This document shows, one piece after another, positions 7,711 through 24,512 of a stretch of 51,022 nt of DNA; position 1 is the stretch's first letter; each line of letters begins with the position of its first letter. The notes under the pieces are model-generated. The model was not told where the DNA came from. It worked only from the letters and a program-made list of their open reading frames with translations, and made no database searches. Position numbers and translations under genes: made by a program. This stretch comes from Lachnospiraceae bacterium (GTDB lineage: Bacteria; Bacillota; Clostridia; Lachnospirales; Lachnospiraceae): positions 1-51,022 of the forward strand of contig JAHAYJ010000096.1 in NCBI GenBank assembly GCA_018384375.1, in the 5' to 3' direction.

Positions 7711-7726
7711 GTTAGCTTTTTCTAAC
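7711..7726. promoter_or_regulatory. Putative metal-regulator box before feoB
   Basis: GTTAG-CTTTTT-CTAAC, a 16-bp dyad in the 60-base gap between feoA and feoB, 15 bases upstream of the ribosome site. Same motif as six other sites in the window. Confidence 0.6.
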
Positions 7727-7741
7727 CTATTTGCAAAAAAA

Positions 7742-7963
7742 TTACTCGACAATTATCATTTCCGCATCAGCTTTTCTTAAAGACAGCTCATAGCCGCGCA
7801 CGGTTACCTCAATCGGATCTCCAAGAGGTGCCACCTTTCGCACATAAACAGTAACTCCTTTGGTAATGCCCATATCCATGATTCTTCTCTTAACCGGTCC
7901 GTCACCGGTAAGCTTTGTAACCTTTACAGTCTGACCGCAGGCAGTCTCCTTTAATGTCTTCAT
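7742..7963 (-). CDS. feoA: FeoA domain protein (second copy)
   Basis: A 73-residue SH3-like FeoA protein: MKTLKETACGQTVKVTKLTG, then RRIMDMGITKGVTVYVRKVAPLGDPIEVTVRGYELSLRKADA, the full FeoA pattern including the DPxEVxVRGxxLSLR motif. FeoA is a small cytoplasmic partner that stimulates FeoB. Start ATG 7963 has GAAAGGAAATAAGAAG. It is the second of two tandem feoA genes, 49 bases downstream of the first. Confidence 0.95.
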   Translation of the reverse strand: MKTLKETACGQTVKVTKLTGDGPVKRRIMDMGITKGVTVYVRKVAPLGDPIEVTVRGYELSLRKADAEMIIVE

Positions 7964-8012
7964 CTTCTTATTTCCTTTCTTTATTCATTTTGGACGCATT
8001 ATACAAGGCAGC

Positions 8013-8225
8013 TTATACCATGATCTTATTTGCCATATCCCTGCCGATCGCCACACGGGAATCCTTCACATTCACAATCAGATTTCCACCTGTGTCCGAT
8101 ACAACAGTGACATTCCCGCCTACTACAAAACCAAGATTCTCAAGAAATCTCTTTGTTTCTTCCTTTCCTCCCAATCTTTTAATGGTATTGGTCTCTCCGG
8201 CATTTAACATTGTCAGTGGCATCAT
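8013..8225 (-). CDS. feoA: FeoA domain protein (first copy)
   Basis: A 70-residue FeoA-type protein: MPLTMLNAGETNTIKRLGG, then TKRFLENLGFVVGGNVTVVSDTGGNLIVNVKDSRVAIGRDMANKI. It is divergent from the other copy and has the shorter NLIVNVKDSRVAIG form of the C-terminal strand, which is common when two FeoA proteins are encoded before FeoB. First gene of the feo operon; two ATG codons in a row follow AAGGGGTGAG. A well-formed promoter with an overlapping dyad lies upstream. Confidence 0.93.
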   Translation of the reverse strand: MMPLTMLNAGETNTIKRLGGKEETKRFLENLGFVVGGNVTVVSDTGGNLIVNVKDSRVAIGRDMANKIMV

Positions 8226-8248
8226 CTCACCCCTTCTTTCTCATTAAT

Positions 8249-8263
8249 TGAGAATTGTTTTCA
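8249..8263. promoter_or_regulatory. Candidate Fur-like box
   Basis: TGAGAAT-T-GTTTTCA agrees with the 7-1-7 Fur consensus (TGATAAT-N-ATTATCA) at 11 of 14 positions. It lies between the feo promoter and feoA. The DNA is AT-rich, so chance agreement is possible. Confidence 0.4.
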
Positions 8264-8272
8264 TTTTCAATG

Positions 8273-8304
8273 GTTAGTTTACTCTAACATTTCTAAATTG
8301 TCAA
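8273..8304 (-). promoter_or_regulatory. feo promoter with overlapping metal-regulator box
   Basis: Minus-strand promoter: -35 TTGACA (8299-8304), 17-base spacer, -10 TAAACT (8276-8281). The dyad GTTAG-N6-CTAAC at 8273-8288 covers the -10 completely, as expected for a repressor site. Confidence 0.75.
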
Positions 8305-8313
8305 TTCTCTTAT

Positions 8314-8328
8314 TGATAATTTTTTTCA
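8314..8328. promoter_or_regulatory. Candidate Fur-like box upstream of the feo promoter
   Basis: TGATAAT-T-TTTTTCA agrees with the 7-1-7 Fur consensus at 12 of 14 positions, 10 bases upstream of the feo -35. Possibly read by the Fur-HD-GYP protein; AT-rich context. Confidence 0.35.
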
Positions 8329-8433
8329 ATTCCGTATTCATTCTCTATCACTGCGTTCAAAAAATGATCGATAATGCTTGAAGATGGGAAACGAATTTCC
8401 TATAATGATTTCAAACCGACAGGAGGCAGAAAT

Positions 8434-8937
8434 ATGGGAAAAAACACAGAATTATTGGATTCTCTATATCAGCACATGATAACCTACTATTCCGGAGATC
8501 CAAAAAGGATCCAGCATTTTGTTAAGGTACATGGCTTTGCAAGGCTCATCGGCCATATGGAGGCGATTCCGGATGAAACGCTTCTCATTCTGGAGGCAGC
8601 CGCTTATGTTCATGACATCGGTATCAAGCCTGCAGAACGCCTTTATGGTAGCTGCAGCGGAAACTATCAGGAAGAATTGGGACCGGCACCTGCTGCAGAT
8701 ATGCTGAAGCAATGCGGATTCTCAGCCGGACAGATTGAGCGGATCACCTATCTTGTCGGCCATCATCATACCTATAATAACATTGATGGATTGGATTATC
8801 AGATTCTGGTGGAAGCAGATTTTCTGGTTAATTTTTACGAGGATGCTACCGGGACAGACGCAATACGTCATGCCTGCGAGACTGTTTTTAAGACTGTTTC
8901 CGGAAGGGAAATCTGCAGAACGATGTTTGATCTTTAA
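8434..8937 (+). CDS. HD domain phosphohydrolase
   Basis: A 167-residue soluble protein with an HD fold: H at FVKVHGFARLIG, the HD doublet in YVHDIGIKPAE, a GHHH stretch (VGHHHTYNNIDG) and D in EADFLVNFYE, the ligand order of metal-dependent HD phosphohydrolases. The substrate cannot be told. Start ATG 8434 is chosen because ACAGGAGGCAGAAAT precedes it; the frame is open 20 codons further upstream without a ribosome site. The gene is divergent from the feo operon and 84 bases before the DtxR-type regulator, and may be transcribed with it. Confidence 0.8.
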   Translation: MGKNTELLDSLYQHMITYYSGDPKRIQHFVKVHGFARLIGHMEAIPDETLLILEAAAYVHDIGIKPAERLYGSCSGNYQEELGPAPAADMLKQCGFSAGQIERITYLVGHHHTYNNIDGLDYQILVEADFLVNFYEDATGTDAIRHACETVFKTVSGREICRTMFDL

Positions 8938-9021
8938 CCTGATTTTACGTACCTTCTCAACAGTTTCGACAATTGTTTTTTCCATTTAAAGATGATATGA
9001 TAAATAAAAAGGAGGTATTCT

Positions 9022-9402
9022 ATGAGTTTTATTCAGCATCGTTCCAGTGAATCCCTTGAAGATTATCTGGAAACCATTCTCTTATTACAAAAAAGAACCG
9101 GACAGGTTCGTTCCATAGATATCGCAACCGAAATGAATTTTTCAAAACCCAGTGTCAGTGTTGCCATGAAAAATTTGCGTGAAAAGGGCTATATCACTAT
9201 GGCAGATAACGGATATATCACGCTTACGGAGAGCGGTCTGCAGCGTGCTGAAAGTGTTCTGGAGCGCCACACCCTGCTTTCCGACTGGCTGATCAGCATT
9301 GGTGTCAGCAGAGAAACTGCTTTAGAGGATGCCTGCAAGATCGAACATGACCTGAGCGAGGAAAGCTTTGAGGCAATCAAAAAAAAGATCCGTTTCTCCT
9401 GA
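9022..9402 (+). CDS. DtxR/MntR-family metal-dependent repressor
   Basis: A 126-residue two-domain metalloregulator without the C-terminal SH3 domain of DtxR, similar in size to MntR. The winged helix lies at about 8-72 (SIDIATEMNFSKPSVSVAMK as recognition region) and the dimerisation helices after that. Metal ligands align with the family: D14 and E17 (like MntR D8 and E11), H83 (H77), then DACKIEHDLS with C105, E108 and H109. C105 stands where MntR has Glu99 and DtxR has Cys102, the residue associated with iron-type DtxR proteins. Start follows AAAAAGGAGGTATTCT. It is the best candidate for the protein that reads the RTTAG-N6-CTAAY boxes of this window. Confidence 0.92.
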   Translation: MSFIQHRSSESLEDYLETILLLQKRTGQVRSIDIATEMNFSKPSVSVAMKNLREKGYITMADNGYITLTESGLQRAESVLERHTLLSDWLISIGVSRETALEDACKIEHDLSEESFEAIKKKIRFS

Positions 9403-9417
9403 TCAGAGAAACGGATC
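9387..9417 (+). terminator. Terminator of the DtxR-type gene
   Basis: Perfect 12-bp stem GATCCGTTTCTC / GAGAAACGGATC with a 7-base loop that holds the TGA stop codon, followed by GTTTTATTT on the plus strand. Confidence 0.85.
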
Positions 9418-9418
9418 G

Positions 9419-9467
9419 TTTTATTTACGATACTCTGTGCACTCCCATCTCATATACTACATCCGCC
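9419..9467 (-). repeat. 49-bp direct repeat, copy A (orphan tail of an ABC gene)
   Basis: Identical at 47 of 49 bases to 13600-13648. On the minus strand it encodes ADVVYEMGVHRVS and a stop, the last residues of the ABC transporter gene that ends at 13606, but no ABC gene is attached to it here. The two copies are in the same orientation, 4181 bases apart. Confidence 0.9.
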
Positions 9468-9488
9468 TATCTATTTATATACGCGATA

Positions 9489-10931
9489 CTAATCCGGAAT
9501 TACCGGTTTGGCATCCGAAGGAATCGGACATACAAAACCTTCTGCTGTGCGCATATCAAATTCCGCTCTTGCCTGTGCAAGCAGATCCGGCTTCTGAAAC
9601 AAATCAACGGCTCCCATTGCAAGCACTTTTCCTGCATATACTGCTGCTTTATGACCAATTCCGGTACAATCACAAGATACATTCTGCCAACTGTGTCCGG
9701 GACATCCGTTTGGCCAGGACGCCACATGAATCTGTACTGTGGGAGTCAGCCAACTGACATCTCCCACATCAGTAGATCCGGGCTCAAAAGCATCACCTTG
9801 ATACAAGGGCATCAAAAACTGATTCATGGAATGTCCGAATTCCTGCCTCTTCTTTTCTACCTCCAAGCGAATCTGCATATCATTGGCTGCACCGATTCCG
9901 GGCAGCGCATCACTTCCGGAGTAGGTGTTTGCAAGAGCATCCGCATAACAAAGCTCCTCCTGTGTGTAAGTCGGGACACCCAGCACTTCAAAATTTTCGT
10001 ACATGACTCTTTCCAATACATGATTAGTCACTGTATCCGCACATCCGTCAATAAATTTCCGCTCATAGGAGGTCTCCGTCATCAGAGCGGCACCCTCCGC
10101 TATCTTATCAACTCTTGCCTGTAGCTCTACAGCTTCGGCTACATGATTGGAACGTACCATATAAAGAACCGATGCCTTGGGTTGTACCACATTGGCACTG
10201 ATCCCCCCCGCATCCGTGATAGCATAGTGAACCCGTGCATGATCACTCATATGCTCCCGCAAAAACTGTACACCAATATTCATCAGTTCAACAGCATCAA
10301 GCGCACTTCTTCCTTTTTCCGGGGCGCCGGATGCATGGGAAGCAATTCCTGTAAATTTATATTGTACCTGAATGCAGGAATTGGTTGACCCGGTTACAAC
10401 TTCATTGCTGTCATCGGGATGCCAGGTAAGTGCCGCATCCAAATCCTTCCAAATACCGTCTCTCGCCATAAATGCCTTGGCAGCACCACCTTCTTCTCCC
10501 GGACATCCATATAAAATTACGGTTCCGGGACATTTCGTCTCCTGCAGAAATGCCTTAACACCGATTGCGGCTGCCATGGCTCCTGCACCCAAAAGATTAT
10601 GTCCACAACCGTGACCGTTCCCTCCTGCAACAATCTCTTCCTGTTCCAAACTGCCACACTTCTGAGACAGCCCGGAAAGTGCATCATATTCGGCCAAAAT
10701 TCCGATCAAAGGTCTGCCGCTGCCAAAGCTTGCACAGAATGCGGTTTCGATACCGGCAATTTTTCTCTGCACGTCGAACCCTTCCTGCTCCAAAACCTCA
10801 CAATAATGAGCAGCAGACTTAAATTCCTGTAAAGAGAGCTCTGCATACTCCCAAATTCGATTCGCTGTTTCTATAATCAGTGATGTCTTTCGATCTATCT
10901 CATCGATTACGATTTGTTTTTCATTTGTCAT
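9489..10931 (-). CDS. AbgB-like M20 family amidohydrolase
   Basis: A 480-residue cytoplasmic metallo-amidohydrolase of the M20D group, closest by motif to AbgB, the p-aminobenzoyl-glutamate hydrolase subunit. Visible are EYDAL (81-85), GHGCGHN (106-112, metal ligand His), PGEEGG (144-149, catalytic and metal Glu), TWHPDD (H171) and a late EPGSTDVGDVSW plus PGHSWQ, all typical. It cleaves an N-acyl amino acid or peptide amide; the real substrate is unknown. Start ATG 10931 follows TAGGAG at 11 bases; a GTG 4 codons upstream overlaps that site. It is the last gene of an amino acid importer operon, so it probably acts on what the importer brings in. Confidence 0.88.
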   Translation of the reverse strand: MTNEKQIVIDEIDRKTSLIIETANRIWEYAELSLQEFKSAAHYCEVLEQEGFDVQRKIAGIETAFCASFGSGRPLIGILAEYDALSGLSQKCGSLEQEEIVAGGNGHGCGHNLLGAGAMAAAIGVKAFLQETKCPGTVILYGCPGEEGGAAKAFMARDGIWKDLDAALTWHPDDSNEVVTGSTNSCIQVQYKFTGIASHASGAPEKGRSALDAVELMNIGVQFLREHMSDHARVHYAITDAGGISANVVQPKASVLYMVRSNHVAEAVELQARVDKIAEGAALMTETSYERKFIDGCADTVTNHVLERVMYENFEVLGVPTYTQEELCYADALANTYSGSDALPGIGAANDMQIRLEVEKKRQEFGHSMNQFLMPLYQGDAFEPGSTDVGDVSWLTPTVQIHVASWPNGCPGHSWQNVSCDCTGIGHKAAVYAGKVLAMGAVDLFQKPDLLAQARAEFDMRTAEGFVCPIPSDAKPVIPD

Positions 10932-10945
10932 CCTGATTCCCACTC

Positions 10946-11722
10946 CTACAATACCTTTGACAGAAAATCCTGCAGTCGAGCACTCTTTGGATGATCAAAA
11001 ATATCCTCCGGGGTGCCTTCTTCAATCAGCATTCCGTCTGCCATGAATAACACTCTGTTTCCGACTTCCCTGGCGAATCCCATCTCATGAGTAACGACCA
11101 CCATCGTCATGCCTTCTTCTGCCAGCTTTTTCATAACATCCAGAACCTCACCGACCATCTCCGGATCAAGTGCGGAGGTTGGTTCGTCGAAAAGCATTAC
11201 ATTCGGTTCCATGGCCAGAGCACGGACAATCGCAACACGCTGTTTCTGTCCGCCGGACAATTGAATGGGATAAGCATTGGCACGATCCTTAAGACCCACA
11301 CGATCAAGAAGCTCCAGTGCCTTCTGCTCCGCTGCTTCTTTACTCATACCCTTCACCTTCATAGGTGCAAGTGTCATATTTTCCAAAATAGTCATATGCG
11401 GAAAAAGATTGAAGTGCTGAAAAACCATCCCCATTTTCTGGCGCAACTTATCAATATCAAGTCGAACGATTTCTCCGTTTTCATCCTTGTATTTCTTTTT
11501 CGTAATATCCGTTCCTTCAAATATAATAGCTCCGCCGGTAGGTTCCTCAAGAAGATTCAAGCTTCGCAGAAATGTGGATTTTCCGGATCCTGAAGGACCT
11601 ATCACCACACACACATCACCGGGATGAATGTCCGTAGAAACTCCGTCCAATGCCTTGATAGCACCACCATGATAATACTTCTTTAAATCCTTTACTTCAA
11701 TCAGGTTATCTCTTGTCTCCAT
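10946..11722 (-). CDS. Polar amino acid ABC transporter, ATP-binding protein
   Basis: A 258-residue GlnQ/HisP-type ATPase: Walker [11 protein letters not shown]-loop [11 protein letters not shown], signature [11 protein letters not shown], Walker [15 protein letters not shown] and H-loop [10 protein letters not shown]. The length and every motif are complete. It overlaps the permease gene by 17 bases and is followed after 14 bases by the amidohydrolase, giving the order binding protein, permease, ATPase, amidohydrolase. Start has GAAAGGAGAATGAGCC before ATG 11722. Confidence 0.96.
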
Positions 11723-12491
11723 GGCTCATTCTCCTTTCAAAGTATGCAATTAATTTGGAAGTTGGGAAGCACAGGCAGAAGTAGATCGCTGTTGCTACCA
11801 GCAAAGGTTCTATGATAACAAATGTTGCACCTTTTACTGCATTTACTGCAGACATGATGTCCTGAACTCCGATGGTGTAAGTAATTGCAGACTCCTTAAT
11901 GATTACAACGAACTCATTCGCAATTGCCGGCAGAATATTCTTCAATGCCTGAGGCAAAATAATATACCGCAGATTCTGTCCCTGAGAAAGCCCAAGCGAC
12001 CGCGCCGCTTCTGTCTGACCGCCGTCAATCGACTGAATACCTGCACGGATAATCTCACACAGATAAGCACCGGAATTCATGCCAAGTGCAACTACGCCGG
12101 GGAAGAAGCGACTGAACTTAATAAATCCGAACATGTTATAGGCAGGAAGCTTAACCACTCCGAATACACCAAAATAAATGATAAAAATCTGTACTATGAC
12201 AGGTGTAGATCTTAGAATTTCCACGTATGCCGTCGCAATAAAAGAGAGAGGATTAAACTTACTGATCACAGCCAAAAACCCCTTCTCTCTCTGATGACCG
12301 TCCTTGTCAATTCCCAAAGCGCGGAATGGCCTGATATTGGACATTCTCATAAGTGCCAGTATAAGTGCAAGGCAAAATCCGATTACCACTGTAAACAGTG
12401 AAAGTAATACTGTAACCAGAAGTCCCTGCTCAAACAACTGTGCATATTCAGCGATCTTGGAGAAATTTGACCATTTAATAAATTGATCCAT
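11706..12491 (-). CDS. Polar amino acid ABC transporter, permease
   Basis: A 261-residue inner membrane permease of the HisM/GlnP type. Hydrophobic segments begin at about residues 20, 85 and 185. The EAA loop [30 protein letters not shown], the contact to the ATPase, is present. It is a single permease for a homodimeric channel. An internal stretch [22 protein letters not shown] between the first two segments is a longer loop than usual. The gene is separated from the binding protein by a strong hairpin. Confidence 0.95.
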
Positions 12492-12532
12492 TGATACCCT
12501 CTCTTTTCTTGTATTTTTTCTGTATAGTTAAA

Positions 12533-12556
12533 TTCCTCCCCGTTTCCGGGGAGGAA
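12533..12556 (-). terminator. Hairpin between binding protein and permease genes
   Basis: Perfect 10-bp GC-rich stem (TTCCTCCCCG / CGGGGAGGAA, 4-base loop) then TTTAACT on the minus strand. The T run is weak, so it probably is a partial terminator or mRNA-stabilising hairpin that gives excess binding protein. Confidence 0.7.
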
Positions 12557-12586
12557 CCCATTTATCAAATCAAAAATATTCCAGAA

Positions 12587-13441: not shown

Positions 13442-13484
13442 AATTATTCCTCCTTAAAATATACATTGAATTGCATATTTATAA

Positions 13485-13525
13485 TATACATGTATACATT
13501 ATATCTTATTTTGTTCATTTGGCAA
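13485..13525 (-). promoter_or_regulatory. Promoter and palindrome of the amino acid importer operon
   Basis: Minus strand: -35 TTGCCA (13520-13525), 16-base spacer, -10 TATAAT (13498-13503). Immediately downstream lies the 12-bp perfect palindrome TATACATGTATA (13485-13496), over the expected start point, a possible operator. Confidence 0.65.
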
Positions 13526-13599: not shown

Positions 13600-13648
13600 T
13601 TTTACTTACGATACTCTGTGCGCTCCCATCTCATATACTACATCCGCC
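13600..13648 (-). repeat. 49-bp direct repeat, copy B (3' end of the ABC gene)
   Basis: The last 43 coding bases of the ABC gene ending at 13606, plus its stop and six bases beyond. Differs from copy A (9419-9467) at two positions. Confidence 0.9.
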
Positions 13649-15294
13649 AGATTCATGGTTGATTTTCTGTGAGACACCAGCAGCACGGTTTTTTCTCCTC
13701 TCGCTTCCTTCAGTGATTTTAAAATGATTCCTTCATTCAGGGCATCCAGATTGCTGGTGGGTTCATCCAGCAAAAGGAACGGTGCATCATGCAAAAAAGC
13801 CCTGGCAATCCCTATCCGCTGCTTTTCTCCTCCTGACAGATTATCCCCGAGTTCTCCTACCTCTGTATCATATCCCTTCGGAAGCGTCATGATAAAGTCG
13901 TGTATGGATGCCTTCTTTGCAGCCTCCACAATTTCTTTTGGGGAAGCCCCCGGTTTCCCAATCGCAATGTTGTTTGCGATGGAATCATGGAATAAATGAG
14001 TTTCCTGCGTCACATAGGATTCCATATCTCTCAAGTCAACAGTATTGACCTTTTTGATATCTTTTTCGGATATCAGTATTTTGCCGCTGTCTGCATCCCA
14101 GAATCGCATAAACAGCTTAAGCAATGTAGATTTTCCAGATCCACTAGCACCATAAATTCCCACCACCTTGCCTTTCGGAATCGCAATCGTGTAATCCTTT
14201 AAGATCTGTTCTTCCTCATAAGCAAAATTTACTTTCCCTGCTGCCGCCCCATGAAATACCGTAAGCGTCTCTCCTGCCACTTCTGCAGTCTGTGGTTCTT
14301 CCTCCAGCAGCGACAATACACGCTCTCCGCTTGCCAGTGTCTGGTTCAGATTGTTGGATAAATTCGCCAGAGCTATCACCGGGCCAAAGGAACCAAGCAT
14401 GGCGATTGTTGTGATCAGCATCTCATCATAGGTCACCTTTCCGCTTTGCAAGCTTCCGAGCATCAAAAACAACATGCCAAAGGAGAAAAACAAAATAGCC
14501 ATATTGGTCAGCGAGACCTGGGATGCTTCATGGCCATTCAGCTTTTTCTGCAGCAGACCAAGCCTTTTGGAGCGTTCATCCATCTGCTTCATTCGCTCCC
14601 GCCCTTTGCCATACTGAATGATTTCATCCAACCCGCGCAGGGAATCCAGGATAAAGCTGTTCAGTTCGCCAAAGGCACTGCGGTATTCCATACCGTCAGC
14701 TGCTCCCCTCCTCCCATTTCTAAACGGAATTGCCACCCCCACCGTCAGATAGCCCAGAAATGCAATAATACCGGCCGGAGGATACTGGATACCAATAAAG
14801 CAGACCATCACAAGAGAAGTCAGCGCAGCAATCGCAATCGGCGAAATGGTGTGTGCATAAAACACCTCCAAAAGCTCTATGTCGGAGGTGATAATCGAAA
14901 TCAGATTTCCCTTATCCCGCCCCTCCAGCTTTGCAGGACACAAATCTCTCAAAGCAGCAAATACCTTGTGCCGAAGGATTGCCAACAGTTTAAATGCAAT
15001 AAAATGATTACAATATTGTTCTCCATAATGAAGAATTCCCCGAAGCACGGCAAGCGTAACCAGCACCACCGCCAAAGCAGTGATCCCGGATGACAAAGCT
15101 TCTACGTCCGTCCCCGCTATCCCCATAAGTCCATGCAAGATACCATAGCCTGCAATAATTGTCAAAAAAATAGCACACAGATAGCCCAAAACGCCCATGA
15201 GAACGGCAAGGCACATGAAAGGAAGCAATGGCCTGACCAGCCCAATCAGGCGACTCATAATCACGATCCCTTTTCTTCTTTGTCTCTGTTCCAT
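13606..15294 (-). CDS. ABC half-transporter, permease-ATPase fusion (second subunit)
   Basis: A 562-residue type IV (exporter-fold) ABC protein similar in layout to CydC: six hydrophobic segments in the first ~320 residues, then an ATPase domain with Walker A YGASGSGKST, signature LSGGEKQRIGI, Walker B FLLLDEPTSNLD and H-loop LVSHRKST. It directly follows the first half-transporter with no gap, so the two should form a heterodimer. ATG 15294 abuts the previous stop; ATG 15258 (after AAAGGGATCGTGATT) is an alternative start. Substrate unknown; co-transcription with ybaN and a metal-type operator suggest an iron- or haem-related role, which is inference. Confidence 0.88.
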   Translation of the reverse strand: MEQRQRRKGIVIMSRLIGLVRPLLPFMCLAVLMGVLGYLCAIFLTIIAGYGILHGLMGIAGTDVEALSSGITALAVVLVTLAVLRGILHYGEQYCNHFIAFKLLAILRHKVFAALRDLCPAKLEGRDKGNLISIITSDIELLEVFYAHTISPIAIAALTSLVMVCFIGIQYPPAGIIAFLGYLTVGVAIPFRNGRRGAADGMEYRSAFGELNSFILDSLRGLDEIIQYGKGRERMKQMDERSKRLGLLQKKLNGHEASQVSLTNMAILFFSFGMLFLMLGSLQSGKVTYDEMLITTIAMLGSFGPVIALANLSNNLNQTLASGERVLSLLEEEPQTAEVAGETLTVFHGAAAGKVNFAYEEEQILKDYTIAIPKGKVVGIYGASGSGKSTLLKLFMRFWDADSGKILISEKDIKKVNTVDLRDMESYVTQETHLFHDSIANNIAIGKPGASPKEIVEAAKKASIHDFIMTLPKGYDTEVGELGDNLSGGEKQRIGIARAFLHDAPFLLLDEPTSNLDALNEGIILKSLKEARGEKTVLLVSHRKSTMNLADVVYEMGAHRVS

Positions 15295-17044
15295 TTACCC
15301 TGCCACCACCTTTCCGTTTTCTTTTCCATAAGCCTCCAATTCACTCTGATAGCAATACAGCCTGTTATATGCGCCCTCTGACTCCAGCAGCTTCTTATGA
15401 GTCCCCTCTTGAACCACAGTGCCGGATTCCATCATATAAATTCGATCTGATTCCACTACATTCGCAAGTCTGTGAGAAATCAGAATGACAGTCTTAGTCT
15501 TTGCAAGTTCCCGTATCACCTTCATGATCATTTCTTCACTCTCCACATCGATATTGGAGGTTGCCTCGTCAAAGATATAGACCGGTGTATCGTGAAGAAG
15601 CGCTCTTGCCAGTGCAAGTCTCTGACACTGACCACCGGAGAAATTGCTTCCCCTTTCCGCCACCGCCGTATCAAGTCCTTGTTGCTCCTGCAAAAATCCC
15701 AGAAGGTTCACTCTGCCGAGCACCTCACACATCTCCTGCTCCGATGCATTTTCCTTTCCCATTTGCAGATTATCTCTCACGGTTCCCTTAAATAAATAGC
15801 TGTTGTGACTTACCAACGTAATATGGTCCATCAAGCTTTTTTCAGAGATATCTCTCAATTCCTTTCCCTGAATCTCGATATGGCCCTCATAGTTTTTATT
15901 CCTTCCCATCAGAATTCCTGCTATCGTACTCTTTCCACAGCCGGATGTACCAACAAGAGCCGTGAAGCTTCCGGCAGAGAAGTCTGCATATATTCCCTTT
16001 AGGGTCTCTCGATCCTTCTCATAAGAGAATCCTACCCCTTCCATCCGGATAGAAATTTCCCCATCTGCCAGTACAAATCTCTTTTCTTCCGGCTCCGGCA
16101 GATCAAGCAATGCAAAGATTTTATCACTGGCTGCCATTCCGTTCATCGCAATATGGAAAAAGGATCCGAGAAGCCGAAGAGGAATAAAAAATTCCGAAGC
16201 CAGAAGAATAATCATCAAAGTTCCACCCAGACTGACAGCTCCTTTCCCAAATTCAGAAAGTGCTACAATCATACCGACTGCTGCGCCGCCATAAGCGATA
16301 ATATCCATGACACTGGTAGAATTGAGCTGCATGGTCAGCACCTTCATGGTAATCTGCCTGAATCTCTGCGCTTCCTCATCCATTTTGATTGCCTTATTCG
16401 CATCTGCCCGGTAAATCTTTAAGGTCGTAAGCCCCTGCAGATTTTCCAGAAACGAGTCTCCAAGCTCCGTATAGCTCTCCCAGTATTTCTGCAATAATTT
16501 CTTTGCAAACTTTTGTACACCCACAATAGAGAGTGGAATCAGGGGTACACAGATAAGAAGCACCAGGCTAGCCTTTCGATTCACAAAGGAAAGGATTGCA
16601 AATAAGGTCACGGGGGCAAGCAGACTGTAAAAAAATTGCGAAAGATATCTGCCGAAATAAATCTCCAACTGCTCTACGCCCTCTGCCGCCATCTGGACCA
16701 CCTCCGAGGTAGCTGCGCTCTCCCGGTAAGCGGCTCCCAGTCTTAACAGCTTCCCATAAATTTTCTTACGCAAAATTCTTTTGACATCCACACTCGCCTT
16801 ATATGACATATACGCCGCCTGTCTGTCACAGAGAAATTTCAACATAACAGCGCCCAAAGCAAGAATGCCATAAAACAGAATCCGATCCCCTGTTATCGTA
16901 TTTTGGAATGCATTTCTCCAAAAGCATGGAAATAACCAGAACTATCACGACCTGACCAAGCAGCGCAATCCATTTCCATATAACCTGATATACAATATAT
17001 TTTTTAGCATGAAATAACAATTTGAGCAGTCTTGTCTTAATCAT
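15295..17044 (-). pseudogene. ABC half-transporter (first subunit), frameshifted
   Basis: Reads as a normal permease-ATPase half-transporter of about 580 residues, but in two frames. The first frame starts at ATG 17044 ([19 protein letters not shown]) and drifts off after VISMLLEKCI. The second frame carries QNTITGDRILFYGILALG, then the rest: YMSYKASVDVKRILRKK, Walker A VGTSGCGKST, signature FSGGQCQRLAL, Walker B YIFDEATSNID and ISHRLAN. One extra base in the GG at 16905-16906 explains everything; removing it joins the frames cleanly. All other motifs are intact, so it is a recent mutation or a sequencing error. The ATG overlaps the ybaN stop by 4 bases (ATGA), showing translational coupling. 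Confidence 0.88.
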
Positions 17045-17436
17045 AGCTGATTTCCTTCCGGTCTTATCGTTTTAATCCTCAGGAAGAAATACCAGAGATG
17101 CCATATCCAGACGACAGCAAGGCAGATTCTTCCGACCGGCGCATTCTTCATGCACAAAAAGCTGATCGCCATCATAATGGTCACCATGCCCATGATCCGA
17201 AGCTTTGTGCCAATCGTCATGGTACGTTCTTTTACAAAGCTGTCAAGGTGCCTTCTGTAAAGCTTTGTTTCAACAAACCAGTCATGAAGCTTTTGCGAGC
17301 TTTTGGCAAAACAGAACGCTGTTGCCATATAAAAAGGTACCGTAGGAAGAACCGGCAGCGCTACTCCTACCGTTCCAAGTCCGAGACAGATAAATCCCAG
17401 CACAATCCATAATATCCGCAGTGGATTCTTGTACAT
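17041..17436 (-). CDS. YbaN/DUF454 family inner membrane protein
   Basis: A 131-residue membrane protein with the DUF454 pattern: [19 protein letters not shown], then [38 protein letters not shown] and [16 protein letters not shown]. Three to four hydrophobic segments. The family has no firmly established function. It is the first gene of an operon with two ABC half-transporters (4-base overlap with the next gene) and has a promoter followed at once by a double metal-regulator dyad. Start ATG 17436 follows GAAAGGAATCGGAAATT. Confidence 0.9.
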
Positions 17437-17459: not shown

Positions 17460-17491
17460 GGTTAGTCTTTTCTAATTAGGAAAGGCTAACC
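17460..17491. promoter_or_regulatory. Double metal-regulator operator before ybaN-ABC
   Basis: A 32-bp palindrome holding two overlapping dyads, GTTAG-N6-CTAAT (17461-17476) and ATTAG-N6-CTAAC (17475-17490). It begins directly downstream of the -10 and so covers the transcription start. Confidence 0.75.
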
Positions 17492-17661: not shown

Positions 17662-18267
17662 ATGCCAGAATCTGGAAACATACAGGAAACAAAATCTCAT
17701 AAGCGGATGAATGATACCGAACTTCGTAAAAAGCAAATTTTGAAGGCGGCCACAGATCTATTTATGGAAAATGGTTATCAAGGGGTCAATATTGATGTTA
17801 TCGCAGAAAAATGCGGTATTGTCAGGGGAACTGTTCTTCGCTATTTCGGAAGCAAAAGGGAATTGTATAATCAAGTATTACTGACCCGTGGCAATCTGGC
17901 GAGCGACTATCTGGGACAGATCTGTGAAGATGAAAGCATATCTGTAAATGAGGCACTGGATAAACTTGCTGACATCTTAATCAAACAGTTCACCGATACA
18001 CTTACCTATATCGGTGATGATATCCGAGACCCGGAATATAGGCAGAACTTTGATGTACTACGGCTCCCAATATTTCGTGAAACGGCAAAATCACTTGAAA
18101 AATTGCTTCTAAGAGGCAATCAGGAAGGTGTATTACATATAGACAACCCCAAAATCAGAGCCTACAGTACGACTTTCGCAATATTCGGAATTGGAGAAGC
18201 TTCAGAAACTCCGGATAATATGTACGCAGAAATAAAGGCATTGATAACGGCACTGCTTCTATTGTAA
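17662..18267 (+). CDS. TetR-family transcriptional regulator
   Basis: A 201-residue regulator. After about 18 polar residues comes a classical TetR N-terminal domain: KKQILKAATDLFMENGYQG, then IDVIAEKCGIVRGTVLRYFGSK as helix-turn-helix. The C-terminal ligand domain is not informative. Start ATG 17662 lies 10 bases after GGAAAGG; ATG 17707 is an alternative. It precedes an alpha/beta hydrolase gene by 32 bases in the same direction and most likely controls that pair. Confidence 0.9.
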   Translation: MPESGNIQETKSHKRMNDTELRKKQILKAATDLFMENGYQGVNIDVIAEKCGIVRGTVLRYFGSKRELYNQVLLTRGNLASDYLGQICEDESISVNEALDKLADILIKQFTDTLTYIGDDIRDPEYRQNFDVLRLPIFRETAKSLEKLLLRGNQEGVLHIDNPKIRAYSTTFAIFGIGEASETPDNMYAEIKALITALLLL

Positions 18268-19256: not shown

Positions 19257-19315
19257 GCATCTGTTTCGTATCATTTCCGCGTAATCCTTCGGGTTATTAT
19301 TGCCATCTGTCTGCT

Positions 19316-19721: not shown

Positions 19722-19746
19722 CAGCTTCTCCCCTTTTGCTACATCT

Positions 19747-20001
19747 TTATAATTCTCGTTCAACAATTAACTTGTAATCTGTTTCTGTAAATCGGTGATA
19801 AATCGTATGTTCCATTTCCATTTTGATGCAATAATACCATGAGTCCGGGTTATGATCCGGGAAAAATAAAACATAGTCAAAGTCCGTTCCACCTTTCATT
19901 TTCTCGCATATGTAACAATTGTTAAATTTTGCAAAGCACTCACAGACTTTTTCTATCGTCAAATGGTGATTATTCTTAAACAGTTCTATCACACTTTCCA
20001 A
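19747..20001 (-). CDS. Hypothetical protein, possibly a fragment
   Basis: An open frame of 84 codons with protein-like composition (DFDYVLFFPDHNPDSWYYCI, then a C-terminal FTETDYKLIVEREL). I do not recognise a family. There is no convincing ribosome site: the first possible start is TTG at 20001, with GTG 19992 as another choice. It overlaps the end of the ketopantoate reductase remnant and lies in a zone of broken genes, so it may be the surviving 3' end of a longer gene. Confidence 0.4.
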   Translation of the reverse strand: MESVIELFKNNHHLTIEKVCECFAKFNNCYICEKMKGGTDFDYVLFFPDHNPDSWYYCIKMEMEHTIYHRFTETDYKLIVEREL

Positions 20002-20270
20002 AAACGGGGAATTCGGTACTCGTTTATATACATAATCTGCACCTGCTGCAGGGATACATCGTATCGCTCATCCGGTGTGAGTGCAGTCACGACCGGAATA
20101 TGACTGACCGATGTGCGGAGCGAAAATTTGTCTTTTATCCGTAACCCGTTCTTTTTGATTTCCTCCGCCCATTTTCCCCGTGCAAGTAGAGTAACGTCCT
20201 TTCCGGCGCGGAACAAGTTCCTTGCCAGATTGCAGCCCAACACGCCTGCGCCATATATCAGAATTTTCAT
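19989..20270 (-). pseudogene. Ketopantoate reductase-like (PanE/ApbA) remnant
   Basis: The start MKILIYGAGVLGCNLARNLF carries the Rossmann GxGxxG motif, followed by GKDVTLLARGKWAEEIKKNG, the NADP-binding half typical of 2-dehydropantoate 2-reductases. After about 73 residues (ALTPDERYDV) similarity ends and the frame stops 20 codons later. The family is about 300 residues long, so more than two thirds is lost. It lies 25 bases downstream of the broken ATC-hydrolase gene and was probably in the same operon. Confidence 0.75.
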
Positions 20271-20295
20271 TGCCTTACTCCTTTTCGTTGAATTT

Positions 20296-20857
20296 TCATC
20301 GATTTCTTCTGTATCCCGCCTCGTCACGATATTCGGGGTGGTCTTTCAGATACTGGTCTTTGTCTCCGCAGATGGTGAAATCGCACTTGCTGCCGTTTGC
20401 ACAAGTGCATGACCTCCAATAAATTATGCTGCCTGGCGAACTCCGCCACCGGGCAAGCGGTAAATTCGTAACAGATAGGTTTGTCCTTTTCAAAGGGTGC
20501 AACATACATCTCATAGTCGTTCCACTTACTGCACTGCTTTTCAGCGTTCTGAAAACTCTTATACATCAGTTTTTTTAACAATGGCTTGTTGCAGTCCACA
20601 AACTTCGACAAGATACGGAAAGTCGGAAGGAACAGTGAAGTCTCCATCTCCTCAATCTCAGCAAGATCTGTGACATCATGGCAGACTCTCCAATACGCCA
20701 TCAGAGCGATACAGTCATAGGTGCCACCCGCACCGTTATGGAAGTTCTTTTTGCCACCGAGATCAGTGCGACAATCGGAGAGGAAGTCCACATATTGCTT
20801 CTGTATCCACTCCCACACAACCTCCCGTTCCGTCTCCTCGTACAGTTTCAATGTCAT
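20296..20857 (-). pseudogene. ATC hydrolase (L-2-amino-thiazoline-4-carboxylate hydrolase) family, broken
   Basis: The first frame (from ATG 20857) runs through GGTYDCIALMAYWRVCHDVT and YEFTACPVAEFARQHNLLEVM, typical of the ATC hydrolase family. It then changes frame: the family's C-terminal block CANGSKCDFTICGDKDQYL and HPEYRDEAGYR is read from a second frame ending at 20296. About 20-25 residues normally found between these blocks are missing, so an internal deletion with frameshift has occurred. No ribosome site is evident before ATG 20857. A promoter-like TATAAT and an RTTAG-N6-CTAAY dyad lie just upstream, suggesting metal control of the original gene. Confidence 0.75.
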
Positions 20858-20872
20858 TCATTTATTTTCGTA

Positions 20873-20888
20873 GTTAGCTATTGCTAAT
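20873..20888. promoter_or_regulatory. Putative metal-regulator box before the ATC hydrolase pseudogene
   Basis: GTTAG-CTATTG-CTAAT, located directly downstream of a minus-strand TATAAT, the same position relative to the -10 as in the ybaN operon. Confidence 0.6.
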
Positions 20889-20947
20889 CCATTATATCAC
20901 TTTAATTTGTAAAGGCAGCATAGAAATATGATAATTTTTCTCTTACA

Positions 20948-22306
20948 TTAAATAATCACACTAAACATATACGGAGGTATTTTTATAATTTCATTATCAA
21001 TCATTAAATTCTTAGGATGAACGATGTAAGACATATCTATCCTTGCATTAAAAGACTCTTTAAAGCGATTCAGTGAAGTTGCTGTATAATTCTTTGATGA
21101 TTTTACTTCGACAGGAAATACCTTAAAGTTCATTTTGCTTTCATTTGACAACAAGAAATCAATTTCTATATCATTTCTGTGCTTTTCTTCCGAATATCTG
21201 GTATAAAAATATAGTTTTTTCCCTTTTGACGCTATCATCTGAGAAATAGCATTTTCATATATCATACCTTCGTTTAACGACAATTTATCATCCATGATTA
21301 ATTTATAAAGCTGCTGATTTATAATCTCATTTTCATTAAACGCAAGACTTACGAGAAGTCCCGTGTCTCCCATGTAGCATTTTACTGCTGATTCATTTTT
21401 GTTCAGTGCAAAACCTACATTAGGATCATTACATTTATAACAGAGATTACATATCATGGAATCATCAAGCCAAAACAGCGGATCATCATATCTGTCAAAT
21501 GTTGCGCCCTGATCTATCTCACTAAGTACAATTTTCTTTTCGTGAGTCGAAAGATATGCAGGGATATTTTCAAATAACGCTGATACTTTAGAGTTATATC
21601 TTTTAGCTGCTTTCTTTATATCATCCCTATACAGATTAAGTATATCACGCTTTTCCACATCAGCCAAAACAAAATCTCGACCATTTTCAGCAAATGCAAC
21701 AACTGCTTGTGGCATACCACCTACCAGCATATATTCCTTAAATAAATGCATTGCTTTTTCATGCATTTTTCTTTCAAGCGGAACTTTTTCCTCATAACAC
21801 TTTTTGATATATTCCACTAAAAGCTCTTCCCCTAAATACATGGCAAATTCTTCAAAATCTACCGGATACATCTTAAGTTTTCTTTCCTCAGATGGAATTG
21901 TAATATCTTCCACATTCTCTCGAATGGAAATCAATGAACCGGTTTCGATAAAATCATATCTTCCATCTGCCACAAGATATTTAATTGCTTCTCTGGCTTT
22001 GGGAAACTTTTGAATCTCATCAAATATGATCAAAGACTCTCTTTTATACAATCTTTTATTATATTCAAGAGACAATGTCTGAAAAAAAACATCAAGATTC
22101 CCCAAATCATCAAAACTCTCAAGGATTTTTTTGCTTGCCTTGTTAAAATCAATCATGATATATGATTTGTACTCATTTTTTCCCAACTCTTCTGTAATTG
22201 TCGATTTACCAATACGTCTGGCCCCTTCAATCAGAAGTGCCTTTGTTCCATTTGAACTGTTCTTCCACTCTATGAGTTTTTCATAAATTTTACGTTTAAT
22301 TTTCAT
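20948..22306 (-). CDS. AAA-type ATPase with DUF4143 domain
   Basis: A 452-residue ATPase of the widespread archaeal/bacterial AAA_14-DUF4143 type. Walker A is GARRIGKST (28-36), Walker B LIIFDEIQKFP; a C-terminal region FPVEVKSSKNYTATSLNRF is the PD-(D/E)xK-like DUF4143 part, with EIDFLLS before it. Such proteins are often accessory or mobile-region genes with unknown partners. ATG 22306 is chosen for GGAGGCTTCTT upstream; the frame opens 12 codons earlier. Composition is more AT-rich than the neighbours, consistent with acquisition. Its promoter carries three evenly spaced direct repeats. Confidence 0.9.
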   Translation of the reverse strand: MKIKRKIYEKLIEWKNSSNGTKALLIEGARRIGKSTITEELGKNEYKSYIMIDFNKASKKILESFDDLGNLDVFFQTLSLEYNKRLYKRESLIIFDEIQKFPKAREAIKYLVADGRYDFIETGSLISIRENVEDITIPSEERKLKMYPVDFEEFAMYLGEELLVEYIKKCYEEKVPLERKMHEKAMHLFKEYMLVGGMPQAVVAFAENGRDFVLADVEKRDILNLYRDDIKKAAKRYNSKVSALFENIPAYLSTHEKKIVLSEIDQGATFDRYDDPLFWLDDSMICNLCYKCNDPNVGFALNKNESAVKCYMGDTGLLVSLAFNENEIINQQLYKLIMDDKLSLNEGMIYENAISQMIASKGKKLYFYTRYSEEKHRNDIEIDFLLSNESKMNFKVFPVEVKSSKNYTATSLNRFKESFNARIDMSYIVHPKNLMIDNEIIKIPPYMFSVII

Positions 22307-22335
22307 AAGAAGCCTCCATGCTACAAATACAACAG

Positions 22336-22410
22336 TACGCAATATAAATTATATCATAATATCCAATAGTACGCAAAGTAATTTTTCTTCTTATTATTAA
22401 TTATACGCAA
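22336..22410 (-). promoter_or_regulatory. ATPase promoter with three TTGCGTA repeats at 34-bp period
   Basis: Minus strand: -35 TTGCGT (22371-22376), 17-base spacer, -10 TATAAT (22348-22353). TTGCGTA occurs at 22404-22410, 22370-22376 and 22336-22342, each start exactly 34 bases apart; the middle copy is the -35 and the last lies just past the start point. Confidence 0.7.
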
Positions 22411-22425
22411 TTTACTTCAAATTTA

Positions 22426-23235
22426 TTATAAGGAAAGATTTTCCATCACCAGTATTTTATTGGACAGATTACGGATAAACGGTATTTTCCCAAGTACTTT
22501 ATAAGCCGGATAAATCACCTTCATTCCTTCCGTAAGGCCGACATCTCTCCGGCTTATAAATTCCGGAATCAGCTTTTCCAATTCTTTTCCGTTCTTCACA
22601 CCCCACGTAAATTTTGCCTGGCTTCCCTGTATTGATTTTTCCTTTACATGAGCTGCCACAAAGGGGGACATAGTTTCCACAAATACAGTGGCCTTATCAA
22701 ATTTTTTATGGATAATATGAAAAATCTGTTTCACATCCGTTTCCTGCAGATACATTGTAAGACCTTCAACTACAACAAGAACCGGTTCCCCATGATAACA
22801 GATTTCTTCTGTATAGGAAGCATCCATGGCCGATTTTGCAAGCTGGAATACCGGTCCATTCTCTTCCAGAAAGCGCCTCCTTATTTGGATAGTTTCCGGA
22901 AGGTCAATATTGTACCAGTACTTATATTTTTCTTCCATACGATAGCATCTTGTATCCATTCCACAGGCGATATTCACCACGATGGTATCCGGATGACTGT
23001 TAAGGAACTCTTCAACCATACCATCCAGCAGAATCGTCCGTGCGATTACTCCTGAACTCATCACGGTGTCCTTCTCTGCGTTGGAGAAATCATAGTCTAG
23101 CCGCGACACAAACTCCATTGCTTTTTTGTCATAAATATAGGGATTCTCTCTCTCCGATTCTTTTGCTCTTGCATACATTGTCTGAAGCATGGTCTCAGGT
23201 ACACCGCTCACAGATATTTTTTCTTTTTTATCCAT
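22426..23235 (-). CDS. SAM-dependent O-methyltransferase, TcmP/LCMT-like
   Basis: A 269-residue class I methyltransferase. The SAM-binding motif is VVNIACGMDTRCYRM (NIACGMDTR 88-96), with a second acidic strand YWYNIDLPETIQIRR and the post-motif VLVVVEGLTMYLQETDV, the pattern of the leucine carboxyl methyltransferase/TcmP family. It transfers a methyl group to a carboxyl or hydroxyl of an unknown small molecule. The start ATG 23235 overlaps the preceding hydrolase gene by 8 bases (AATGGATAA), so translation is coupled. It is the third gene of the HMA protein/hydrolase/methyltransferase operon. Confidence 0.88.
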   Translation of the reverse strand: MDKKEKISVSGVPETMLQTMYARAKESERENPYIYDKKAMEFVSRLDYDFSNAEKDTVMSSGVIARTILLDGMVEEFLNSHPDTIVVNIACGMDTRCYRMEEKYKYWYNIDLPETIQIRRRFLEENGPVFQLAKSAMDASYTEEICYHGEPVLVVVEGLTMYLQETDVKQIFHIIHKKFDKATVFVETMSPFVAAHVKEKSIQGSQAKFTWGVKNGKELEKLIPEFISRRDVGLTEGMKVIYPAYKVLGKIPFIRNLSNKILVMENLSL

Positions 23236-24153
23236 TCGCCCTTCCCCAGGAACGGATAGCATCCGTCACATGCCTTTCAATATCTACTCTTGCTGCTTTG
23301 CATTCCTTCGGATAATTTCTTCCTGCAGCAAACACTCTTGGCATTAGGTCTCCCACCACCGGCAGAATTGCCTTCACCAAACCTTCCGGAAAAACAAAAT
23401 GCGTAGCATGCTCGTATATGTAGCTCTCCACCTCACAGTTATGCTCCCGCTTTGCAAGGCGTTCCTCCATTCGTCGGATATACTTTGCCGTGTCCCACAA
23501 AACATCATCCTCGGCGCCGATGAGCAGGAGTCTGCCCTTTATCCTTTCGATTTTGATAAATTCTTCTTCCTGAATCGGATGCACCTTCTCCGAAGTATCA
23601 AACAGCTCGCGGGATGCTATCATATCTTTGCCCTTTTGGGATTCCTCTTTTATTTTCATACCGTATTCCGGATGCCTGTAGGCATAGGGCAGATAAGGCA
23701 GCGGCTTCCCTTCCCAGGAAGCACTGGACTCACCATCCCCCGGCCATTCGCTCTGACCGTCCCGTTTCCCCTGGTAAAACCTTCCATCACAAAATCCGCA
23801 GGCGTCATTGCGATCGTAAGCGTAATCTGCGGATAATAGGAAGCTGCAAGAAGTGCATACATTCCTGTTGTGGAAGCTCCCGTGATAGCTATTTTTTCAA
23901 TACCTCGTGTCTGTAAATAGGAAATTGCGGCACCGATTCTCTCCACCGGCAGATTGTGATGACTGTAATCCTTCCGCGCAGGACTTAATGTCAAAACACT
24001 GATATGTAACTTTTTCTGTAACCATTTCACTGCAGACTTTGCCATATGGTCTTCACAATCATCTCCCAGCATGGCAATAATTGCACACTTGCTTCCTTTT
24101 ACAGGCCAGTAACAACCATAAAATCCTTTTTCTGTCTCTTTGATTTTCTTCAT
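23228..24153 (-). pseudogene. Acyl-CoA thioesterase/BAAT C-terminal-type hydrolase, frameshifted
   Basis: A hydrolase of about 307 residues split by a one-base deletion. The first frame (from ATG 24153) contains the nucleophile motif AITGASTTGMYALLAAS and DFVMEGF, then goes out of frame. The other frame supplies YQGKRDGQSEWPGDGE, SWEGKPLPYLPYAYRHPEYG and continues to EDDVLWDT (acid) and EHATHFVFPE (His). Restoring one base in the AAAA run at 23776-23779 gives a full-length family member. All catalytic residues are otherwise present, so the change is recent or a sequencing error. It lies 13 bases after the HMA gene and overlaps the methyltransferase gene. Confidence 0.85.
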
Positions 24154-24166
24154 ACGCTAATCCTCC

Positions 24167-24418
24167 CTACTTTCTCCCAAACAATCCTTTTTTCACATAC
24201 TCCTCTGTCTTTACCGACAATACCGTATAACCCGTTTCTTTGATTGTCTGCTTCAATTTCTCCTCATCCAGCGAATTATCGGACAGTATCTCCGTTAAAC
24301 CCTTACTGTGAGAAGAAGTAACCTTTTTCACCACAAAACTCTTTCGCACCGCATCATTTATATGGGATTCGCACATTCCACACGCCATGCCGTCAATTTT
24401 TAATGTTGTCTTAATCAT
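24167..24418 (-). CDS. Heavy-metal-associated (HMA) domain protein
   Basis: An 83-residue soluble protein with the HMA metal-binding signature GMACGMCESHIN (Cys13 and Cys16) after the first beta strand, and a ferredoxin-like second half (EEKLKQTIKETGYTVLSVKTEE). The variant CxMC with a preceding Ala is slightly unusual but functional in related proteins. It is the first gene of an operon with a hydrolase and a methyltransferase, and the only metal-binding protein there. Two metal-regulator dyads and a good promoter lie upstream. Start ATG 24418 has GGCGGAGGCGTTTTAA. Confidence 0.9.
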   Translation of the reverse strand: MIKTTLKIDGMACGMCESHINDAVRKSFVVKKVTSSHSKGLTEILSDNSLDEEKLKQTIKETGYTVLSVKTEEYVKKGLFGRK

Positions 24419-24450
24419 TTAAAACGCCTCCGCCTCAGAGAATAATTGCA

Positions 24451-24466
24451 ATTAGTCATCTCTAAC
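24451..24466. promoter_or_regulatory. Putative metal-regulator box 1 of the HMA operon
   Basis: ATTAG-TCATCT-CTAAC, between the promoter and the HMA gene, in the expected untranslated leader. Confidence 0.6.
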
Positions 24467-24496
24467 CTCATTCTACCAAATTAGCGGTCACCGTCC

Positions 24497-24512
24497 ATTA
24501 GTTACCGCTAAC
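24497..24512. promoter_or_regulatory. Putative metal-regulator box 2 of the HMA operon
   Basis: ATTAG-TTACCG-CTAAC, centred about 16 bases downstream of the -10. A further TTAGCGGT at 24481-24488 forms a longer inverted repeat with its right half. Confidence 0.6.

Follow-up and report, generated by a model that had tools for sequence, protein, structure and literature searches.

We analysed a 51,022-nucleotide stretch of DNA from Lachnospiraceae bacterium (assembly GCA_018384375.1, contig JAHAYJ010000096.1, positions 1 to 51,022), hereafter called the window. In this window, seven 16-bp dyads of the pattern RTTAG-N6-CTAAY accompany the feo genes of ferrous iron uptake, a gene for a DtxR/MntR-family regulator and several genes of other kinds. 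A preliminary description had regarded the dyads as the mark of a local metal regulon, and all seven are indeed exact matches to the pattern at the coordinates that it gave.

Two of the dyads belong to the feo genes. On the minus strand, the feo run starts with a second feoA (8013..8225), continues with feoA (7742..7963; PF04023 in both cases) and with feoB (5522..7681) for the ferrous iron transporter, which is 72-84% identical to its counterparts in the loci of 29 relatives, and ends with a gene encoding a FUR domain fused to HD-GYP (4636..5529; PF01475 and PF13487). A more distant feoB homologue, in locus L197 (65% identity), matches the FeoB Pfam domains. The dyad GTTAGCTTTTTCTAAC (7711..7726) is considered as an internal site of the run because of its position between feoA and feoB. 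The dyad GTTAGTTTACTCTAAC (8273..8288) covers the -10 box of feoAA-feoB. It lies in a divergent gap whose other side is occupied by two plus-strand genes, the first for an HD-domain-like protein (8374..8937; HD match of 21.3 bits, just missing the cut-off of 22) and the second for the DtxR/MntR-family regulator (9022..9402), named dtxR below.

The five remaining dyads lie further along the window, next to minus-strand genes. GTTAGTCTTTTCTAAT (17461..17476) and ATTAGGAAAGGCTAAC (17475..17490), which overlap by two bases, are found upstream of the genes for YbaN (DUF454; 17041..17436; PF04304), for a CydD-like ABC half-transporter (15295..16857; TIGR02857, 376.7 bits, below the cut-off of 435) and for a CydC-like one (13606..15294; TIGR02868, 318.2 bits, below the cut-off of 329.05). 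A TetR-family regulator gene (17662-18267) is divergent from ybaN, so that both dyads stand in the gap between the two. GTTAGCTATTGCTAAT (20873..20888) precedes an open reading frame (ORF) of 177 amino acids (20324..20857) that has no Pfam match itself and is called ATC-hydrolase-like here, being 72% identical to L305:9193-9894, which matches the ATC hydrolase domain PF14196 (42.4 bits, cut-off 28.1). Finally, ATTAGTCATCTCTAAC (24451..24466) and ATTAGTTACCGCTAAC (24497..24512) are the proximal and distal sites of an operon. Its first gene encodes a small HMA protein with a CxxC motif seen in the translation (24167..24418; PF00403). It is followed by an alpha/beta hydrolase of BAAT_C-like type (23228..24153, in two ORFs, 23656-24153 and 23228-23659), and by an LCM-family methyltransferase (22426..23262; PF04072).

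In windows shuffled with preservation of dinucleotides, the 16-mer occurred 0.16 times on average and twice at most, and none of 100 such windows reached seven copies; the TTAG-N6-CTAA core alone had a mean of 0.76 and a maximum of 4. The dyads had been described as non-coding and as placed before minus-strand genes. The first point stands insofar as none of the seven overlaps any of the 18 ORFs of the window taken as genes, although short antisense frames from a mechanical ORF list cover 7711 and 20873. The second needs amendment, since the dyad at 7711 is internal to the feo run and the gap of 8273 has the plus-strand HD gene on its other side, at a distance of 145 bp. The proposed promoters could be recognised in three cases out of four: TTGACA-N17-TAAACT before feoA, with the -10 box inside the dyad at 8273; TTGACA-N17-TAGAAT before ybaN, whose -10 begins 23 bases ahead of the dyad at 17461 and 9 ahead of that at 17475; and TTGACA-N18-TACCAT before the HMA gene, with a -10 starting 14 bases before 24497. 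For the ATC-like gene, no good promoter could be recognised at 20873, even the best candidate there being very poor.

Recurrence of the dyads in other genomes

A pattern search of the whole genome of the organism (3.11 Mb in 125 contigs) yielded nine distinct exact dyads, seven of which are those of the window. The eighth, GTTAGCATATACTAAC (C69:20423), is located 37 bp before a 45-codon gene for a FeoB-associated Cys-rich membrane protein (PF12669, 61.3 bits). This dyad lies outside the window and provides an independent link to iron. The ninth sits within an aroC-like ORF, named by translation alone, and is probably due to chance. The regulon is thus not confined to the window: it also includes the FeoB-associated gene on another contig and extends to other genera and families.

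This extension was examined in two sets of loci. The first was drawn from 120 genomes of the family, all with a FeoB match, and its gene-centred samples are the best-scoring loci of these genomes rather than random ones; the feo sample comprises 29 relatives' loci and our own, which is counted below unless relatives are named. Flanks are short in a few loci (L042, L067, L142 and L213) and ORFs were called by simple rules, so that some of the first genes listed are antisense frames. A strict dyad was found near feoB in 25 of the 29 relatives, while the reversed pattern was absent from all 30 loci. In these 30 loci, a dyad occurs 131-1000 bp before feoB in 20 and within 130 bp of its ATG in 17, both being present in 11. 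The second set consisted of feoB loci from a collection with titles, the best 80 of 541, two of them from one genome (L339 and L349); it takes in Roseburia faecis, Blautia wexlerae, Oliverpabstia, Faecalimonas, Anaerocolumna, Lacrimispora and many Lachnospiraceae bins. Here a dyad lies within 1200 bp upstream in 73 of 80 loci (61 of the 65 with a full flank), two or more dyads are present in 58, and the reversed pattern is found in none of the 80.

A refined form of the dyad, GTTAGNATATACTAAC, was present in 31 of the 120 family genomes (reversed form, 0/120) and in 31 of 294 genomes of the order (reversed form, 4/294). Twelve of the latter 31 belong to genomes outside the family (12/223). Eleven of these twelve loci were read: feo is present in two (L239 and L259), a FUR-like gene in L241 and an ABC gene with 25% identity in L237, whereas the other seven offer nothing telling, L245 having just a 26% match of GTPase type. 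The distribution is best read as that of a regulon which would be family-wide and would reach other families of the order.

The placement of the dyads relative to promoters was then counted over all loci taken, that is 422 unique dyads in 452 dyad-gene contexts, a promoter being recognised in 145. For 115 of these 145 predicted promoters, the first base of the -10 box falls in the range -30 to +16 relative to the dyad start, against a mean of 21.5 of 52.2 with shuffled flanks. When the loci fetched by a TATACT-holding pattern are left out, the count is 89 of 114 (15.9 of 39.8 shuffled), and for the feo loci alone it is 36 of 49 (11.8 of 25.6 shuffled, largest 21). Two arrangements are preferred, in which the -10 either lies inside the dyad (+7, 41 cases) or shortly precedes it (-15 to -13, 39 cases). 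Such a layout appears to be that of a repressor that blocks the polymerase.

Dyads were also sought upstream of each gene family singled out in the preliminary description, and of FUR-like genes. They were detected before feo in 26 of 30 loci and, within 300 bp, or 400 bp for dtxR, before dtxR in 10 of 30, HMA genes in 9 of 30, YbaN genes in 5 of 30, ATC-like genes in 3 of 8 and FUR-like genes in 4 of 20. The means obtained with shuffled sequences ranged from 0.02 to 0.14 over all sets (0.02 to 0.04 without feo), and the reversed pattern gave 0 in each. Every family named at the outset thus recurs with a dyad in other genomes, those other than feo in a minority of loci. With regard to the two dyads in the gap between ybaN and the divergent TetR-family gene, and to TetR-like genes near dyads in L203, L213 and L237, one could wonder whether the dyads are operators of that regulator. 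However, a TetR-like gene comes first behind a dyad in 2 of 157 dyad-gene rows, feo and HMA genes in far more, and we hold this explanation to be very improbable.

The DtxR-family protein and its putative operator

The preliminary description had placed a DtxR-family gene within the set of dyads, and the assignment is borne out: the 9022-9402 protein passes the Pfam cut-offs for both DtxR/MntR domains, the Fe_dep_repress HTH (PF01325, 44.3 bits for a cut-off of 26) and the Fe_dep_repr_C dimerisation domain (PF02742, 50.6 for 27). It is the sole DtxR-type match in the genome at E <= 0.001. The protein has 126 residues in total, compared with 226-233 in IdeR and DtxR, and must consequently lack the third, SH3-like domain; the match to the dimerisation domain ends at residue 125. 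No NCBIfam model exceeded its cut-off, the MntR equivalogs scoring 92.1 for a required 153 and 71.5 for 138 bits. Among proteins of solved structure, the nearest by sequence are MntR (PDB 2h09 and 1on1), with IdeR and DtxR further down.

We aligned the homologues in 31 rows, where our own protein is counted twice and positions are placed by motif and not by structure. The position of IdeR Cys102 is a Cys in all 31 rows. That of Met10 is Asp in 15 and Asn in 16, and that of Gln43 is Val in 30 and Ile in one. Ser37 is kept in 21 rows and Pro39 in 25, and Thr40 is replaced by Ser in all 31. Glu, His, Glu and His are invariant at the positions that we take to be those of the MntR ligands.

The published 19-bp IdeR/DtxR consensus, TTAGGTTAGCCTAACCTAA (PMC7762939, PMC8464063), contains TTAG-N6-CTAA twice. 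According to the IdeR work, one dimer binds per TTAG-N6-CTAA, and a single dimer binds the half site TTAGGNNNNCCTAA alone (PMC8464063). The spacing of our dyads is that of this one-dimer half site. Their bases differ: of 273 unique dyads, one keeps both the inner G and the inner C of the half site (TTAGG...CCTAA), while an outer G/C is common (195 of 273), the base composition of this collection and the latter count being shaped by the patterns used to fetch the loci. There is no clear sign of complete 19-bp boxes, since a second dyad shifted by 5 bp accompanies 10 of the 273, against a shuffled mean of 5.06 and a largest value of 12. Gln43 of IdeR is described as contacting the first C of CCTAA (PMC8464063), and the change in the inner bases of the operator would fit, as weak support, the change from Gln43 to Val in the recognition helix.

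The gene for the regulator is also close to dyads in other genomes. A dtxR homologue is divergent from feo in 21 of the 80 titled loci, within the flank covered, and two loci (L056 and L058) have dtxR with dyads upstream and neither feoA nor feoB among the ORFs listed. Furthermore, in the 25 relatives whose feo genes carry a dyad, a DtxR match is present in 24 and a FUR-domain match above 60 bits in 12.

Altogether, we propose that the dyads are in all likelihood operators of the DtxR/MntR-family protein encoded at 9022-9402, an iron-responsive repressor that would bind each of them as one dimer and repress iron uptake. One subunit would contact each TTAG/CTAA arm, in the manner of a single IdeR dimer on TTAGG-N4-CCTAA. 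The iron-loaded dimer would cover the -10 box or the transcription start and thereby block feoAA-feoB, where another site lies within the run, along with YbaN-ABC, the operon for HMA, hydrolase and methyltransferase, and the ATC-like gene; under iron scarcity, the repressor would release the dyads. The computations establish the sites themselves and how they are conserved before the same genes, placed at promoters and spaced as half sites, and also that dtxR stands beside dyads in some relatives; the 9022-9402 protein as binder, Fe2+ as corepressor and repression as effect are, all three, what we infer. Iron is favoured as the signal because of the target genes and of the Cys at the Cys102 position in all 31 rows.

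Several observations, given in this paragraph and the two that follow, weigh against this proposal. The pattern is not in excess over the genome, with 9 matches per strand for 11 of the reversed control, nor over the genus, where 37 genomes (ours included, both strands) contain GTTAG-N6-CTAAY 344 times, sites ending in CTAAC being counted twice, and its reverse 370 times. The signal resides in the placement of the sites and not in their genome-wide number. These genus counts, together with the TAG and TAA held in the pattern, could suggest the chance clustering of a stop-codon-rich motif between genes. But the shuffled windows, none of which reached seven, the same genes found in other genera with the reversed control at 0/80, the preferred place against the -10 box and the conservation that held for feo in the wider sample make this scarcely credible. 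Moreover, a strict dyad is missing upstream of feo in 4 of 30 loci (two of which have forms with one mismatch) and in 4 of the 65 titled loci with a full flank. None is close upstream of 20 of 30 dtxR, 21 of 30 HMA, 25 of 30 YbaN, 5 of 8 ATC-like and 16 of 20 FUR-like genes. In the window itself, the 400 bp upstream of dtxR contain no dyad. One genome (G009, 86% complete) has dyads at feo and no DtxR match. Lastly, a Q43A mutant of IdeR is reported to bind like the wild type, recognition being mostly indirect (PMC8464063), and for this reason the fit between helix and operator counts as weak evidence.

FUR-like genes occur near feoB in a number of relatives, beside feoB or the dyads in part of the genomes, and a FUR-family protein, for example the FUR-like one encoded beside feoB, could bind the dyads instead of the DtxR-type protein. 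The FUR-like genes preceded by dyads in 4 of 20 loci would agree with this idea, as would a locus (L084) where two dyads are followed by neighbouring FUR-like and dtxR genes, and the second FUR-family match that our genome possesses besides the fusion (contig C24, 33.2 bits). On the other hand, the counts of 12 and 24 relatives out of 25 given above favour DtxR, the dyads have the spacing of IdeR half sites, and the FUR domain of the feo run is here part of a fusion with HD-GYP. The Fur box would also look different from the dyad. We therefore find a FUR-family binder decidedly unlikely.

A last hypothesis keeps the same DtxR-type operators, and so overlaps with our proposal except for the metal, and supposes that manganese, or manganese and iron, is sensed. 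Sensing of Mn2+ or of both metals is possible because the Met10 position is Asp or Asn, as in MntR, and the closest relatives of solved structure are MntR proteins. A 2023 review also assigns the DtxR proteins of low-GC Gram-positives to manganese (PMC10317159). In L188 a ZIP permease gene comes behind a dyad-led HMA gene, and L196 has one alike by translation. However, the targets are feoAB and genes for FeoB-associated and FUR-like proteins, and no manganese transporter was recognised among the first genes behind dyads, no search dedicated to such transporters having been made. The Cys at the Cys102 position is also IdeR-like: the same review indicates that MntR has Glu where Cys102 sits and Asp/Asn at the Met10 position, and that sulphur ligands are said to raise the selectivity for Fe2+ (PMC10317159). 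A manganese or mixed signal thus seems to us rather unlikely.

Other genes behind the dyads

Several of the genes that stand behind dyads besides feo recur as operons. YbaN, CydD and CydC genes follow a dyad in this order in G084 and G040; a dyad pair precedes genes for a 176-residue protein, LCM, HMA and hydrolase in G138, and an HMA-CydD-CydC operon in G130. Within the genus, a dyad lies within about 1.5 kb on either side in 9 of 30 PF14196 loci (representing 8 separate places and including 4 loci of the single genome G138; reversed pattern, 1/30) and in 6 of 10 PF04072 loci (one of them our own; reversed pattern, 0/10). Among loci chosen by the motif, the first genes encode FeoB-associated proteins (L008 and L085), an ATC hydrolase (L177), ABC proteins, an FMN_bind pair (L097), DUF2325 (L203) and DUF3793 (L193). 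In L098, the dyad-led protein joins an HMA domain to a FeoB_associated match below the cut-off (22.1 for 27 bits); a similar HMA protein in L058, a locus found through dtxR, matched the HMA domain alone.

Several members of the genus (G125, G127, G128, G130 and G137) have dyad pairs whose starts are separated by 45 to 51 bp, and the pair 24451/24497 of the window, with a spacing of 46 bp, is of this kind. Such pairs stand upstream of HMA (L164, L188 and L190), CydD-like (L189), FUR-like (L191) and hydrolase (L198) genes. A helical phasing of the pairs was considered (46 spacings, vector strength 0.338 at 10.5 bp) and dropped, the spacings not being independent. Some members of the genus are rich in the pattern, with 13 forward matches in G138, 19 in G143 and 15 in G150; they have 5, 8 and 1 ATC-hydrolase matches, respectively. 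Over the genus, the ATC and dyad counts are weakly correlated (Spearman 0.39, p 0.018, relatedness uncorrected).

Because of this recurrence behind dyads, the HMA protein, the ABC pair, the hydrolase, the LCM protein and the ATC-like enzymes are candidates for the uptake of iron or its release from a ligand. Going further, one could imagine that the repressor controls, beyond feo, an undescribed iron-acquisition module of gut Lachnospiraceae and related bacteria, made of an HMA chaperone, an ABC importer and ligand enzymes, and that the same switch reaches cyclic-di-GMP signalling; we put this forward tentatively, as a possibility on which we would not rely. The small HMA protein would be an iron chaperone working with FeoB, as the joining of HMA to a FeoB-associated-type N-terminus in L098 and L058 may suggest. 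The YbaN-linked ABC pair, of exporter fold, would import an iron-ligand complex as IrtAB and YbtPQ do, and the alpha/beta hydrolase, the ATC hydrolase and the LCM methyltransferase would open or modify the ligand. A search of solved structures with one ABC subunit returned general exporters in the best 60 of 581 rows.

As for cyclic-di-GMP, dyads of the genus adjoin an HD-GYP gene that follows a 43%-identical feoB (L204 6600-7244), a GGDEF gene (L171 68-1312; L171 and L204 are the same place) and a PilZ-chemoreceptor gene (L205 9003-11099). With the FUR/HD-GYP fusion that ends the feo run, these genes make a link between iron and cyclic-di-GMP possible. FMN_bind proteins led by dyads were identified by Pfam in L097 (311-1468 and 1694-3016) and by likeness of translation in L093 (1712-3016); they could perhaps reduce iron or transfer electrons at the cell surface. 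Other genes found behind dyads are a NifH-family gene (L170 658-1437) with two dyads 34 bp apart upstream, and genes for enolase, recognised by translation only, with a dyad about 100 bp upstream (L096 1616-2917 and L180 98-1390). In L188, an ApbA gene and a hydrolase gene stand behind the dyad-led HMA and ZIP genes.

Some genes of the window are not intact. The CydD-like gene looks split because an ORF in another frame (16826-17044) is found at its start. This gene (15295-17044) and the BAAT-like hydrolase gene (23228-24153), a single ORF of 316 residues in L200, each consist of two ORFs in different frames and may be decayed or contain sequencing errors. Gene pieces follow one another in 19747-20857 (a DUF3877 piece, an ApbA piece and the ATC-like ORF), in what looks like a decaying operon. 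Moreover, the single ORF 25810-29100 runs, by its translation, from a repeat-rich surface protein into an AraC-like C-terminus, perhaps through recombination or an assembly join.

Comparison with known systems

That a DtxR-family regulator governs iron uptake is, as such, already known. The present case would be a variant of it by its host group, by its additional targets and by its proposed operators, which are mainly for one dimer and altered at the inner bases. In low-GC Gram-positives, according to a 2023 review, iron is the domain of Fur and the DtxR proteins are limited to manganese; the review adds that one-dimer half sites in other species with IdeR remain to be investigated (PMC10317159). 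A search of the open-licence literature by titles and starts of abstracts gave no DtxR iron regulon or operator in Lachnospiraceae among the matches listed. From the genomes compared here, it seems that a common family of gut anaerobes runs its iron uptake by a DtxR-family protein, mainly through one-dimer sites. If this is true, one short word would predict iron-regulated genes across gut commensals, including families whose role is unknown.

With the IdeR/DtxR systems of Actinobacteria (PMC8464063), the present one shares the TTAG-N6-CTAA spacing, the DtxR-family domains, a Cys in the place of Cys102 and targets in iron uptake; it differs by a protein of 126 residues, few shifted second dyads, rare inner G/C, Val for Gln43 and Asp/Asn for Met10. 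With MntR of E. coli and Bacillus, it shares the two-domain size, Asp/Asn at the Met10 position and the closest solved structures by sequence, whereas Cys replaces Glu, the NCBIfam MntR cut-offs are missed and the targets are iron-uptake genes. Like the Fur regulons of low-GC Gram-positives, named in the review (PMC10317159), it would ensure iron-responsive control of iron uptake; in contrast to them, the FUR domain of the window finds nothing above 60 bits in 13 of the 25 relatives whose feo genes bear a dyad. A parallel can also be drawn for the transporters. The YbaN-linked genes resemble the CydDC exporters as a two-gene ABC pair of exporter fold, CydD and CydC being their best NCBIfam matches, with cut-offs missed. 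Their likeness to the siderophore importers IrtAB and YbtPQ is one of analogy, for an ABC pair that would here be placed under the proposed iron operator.

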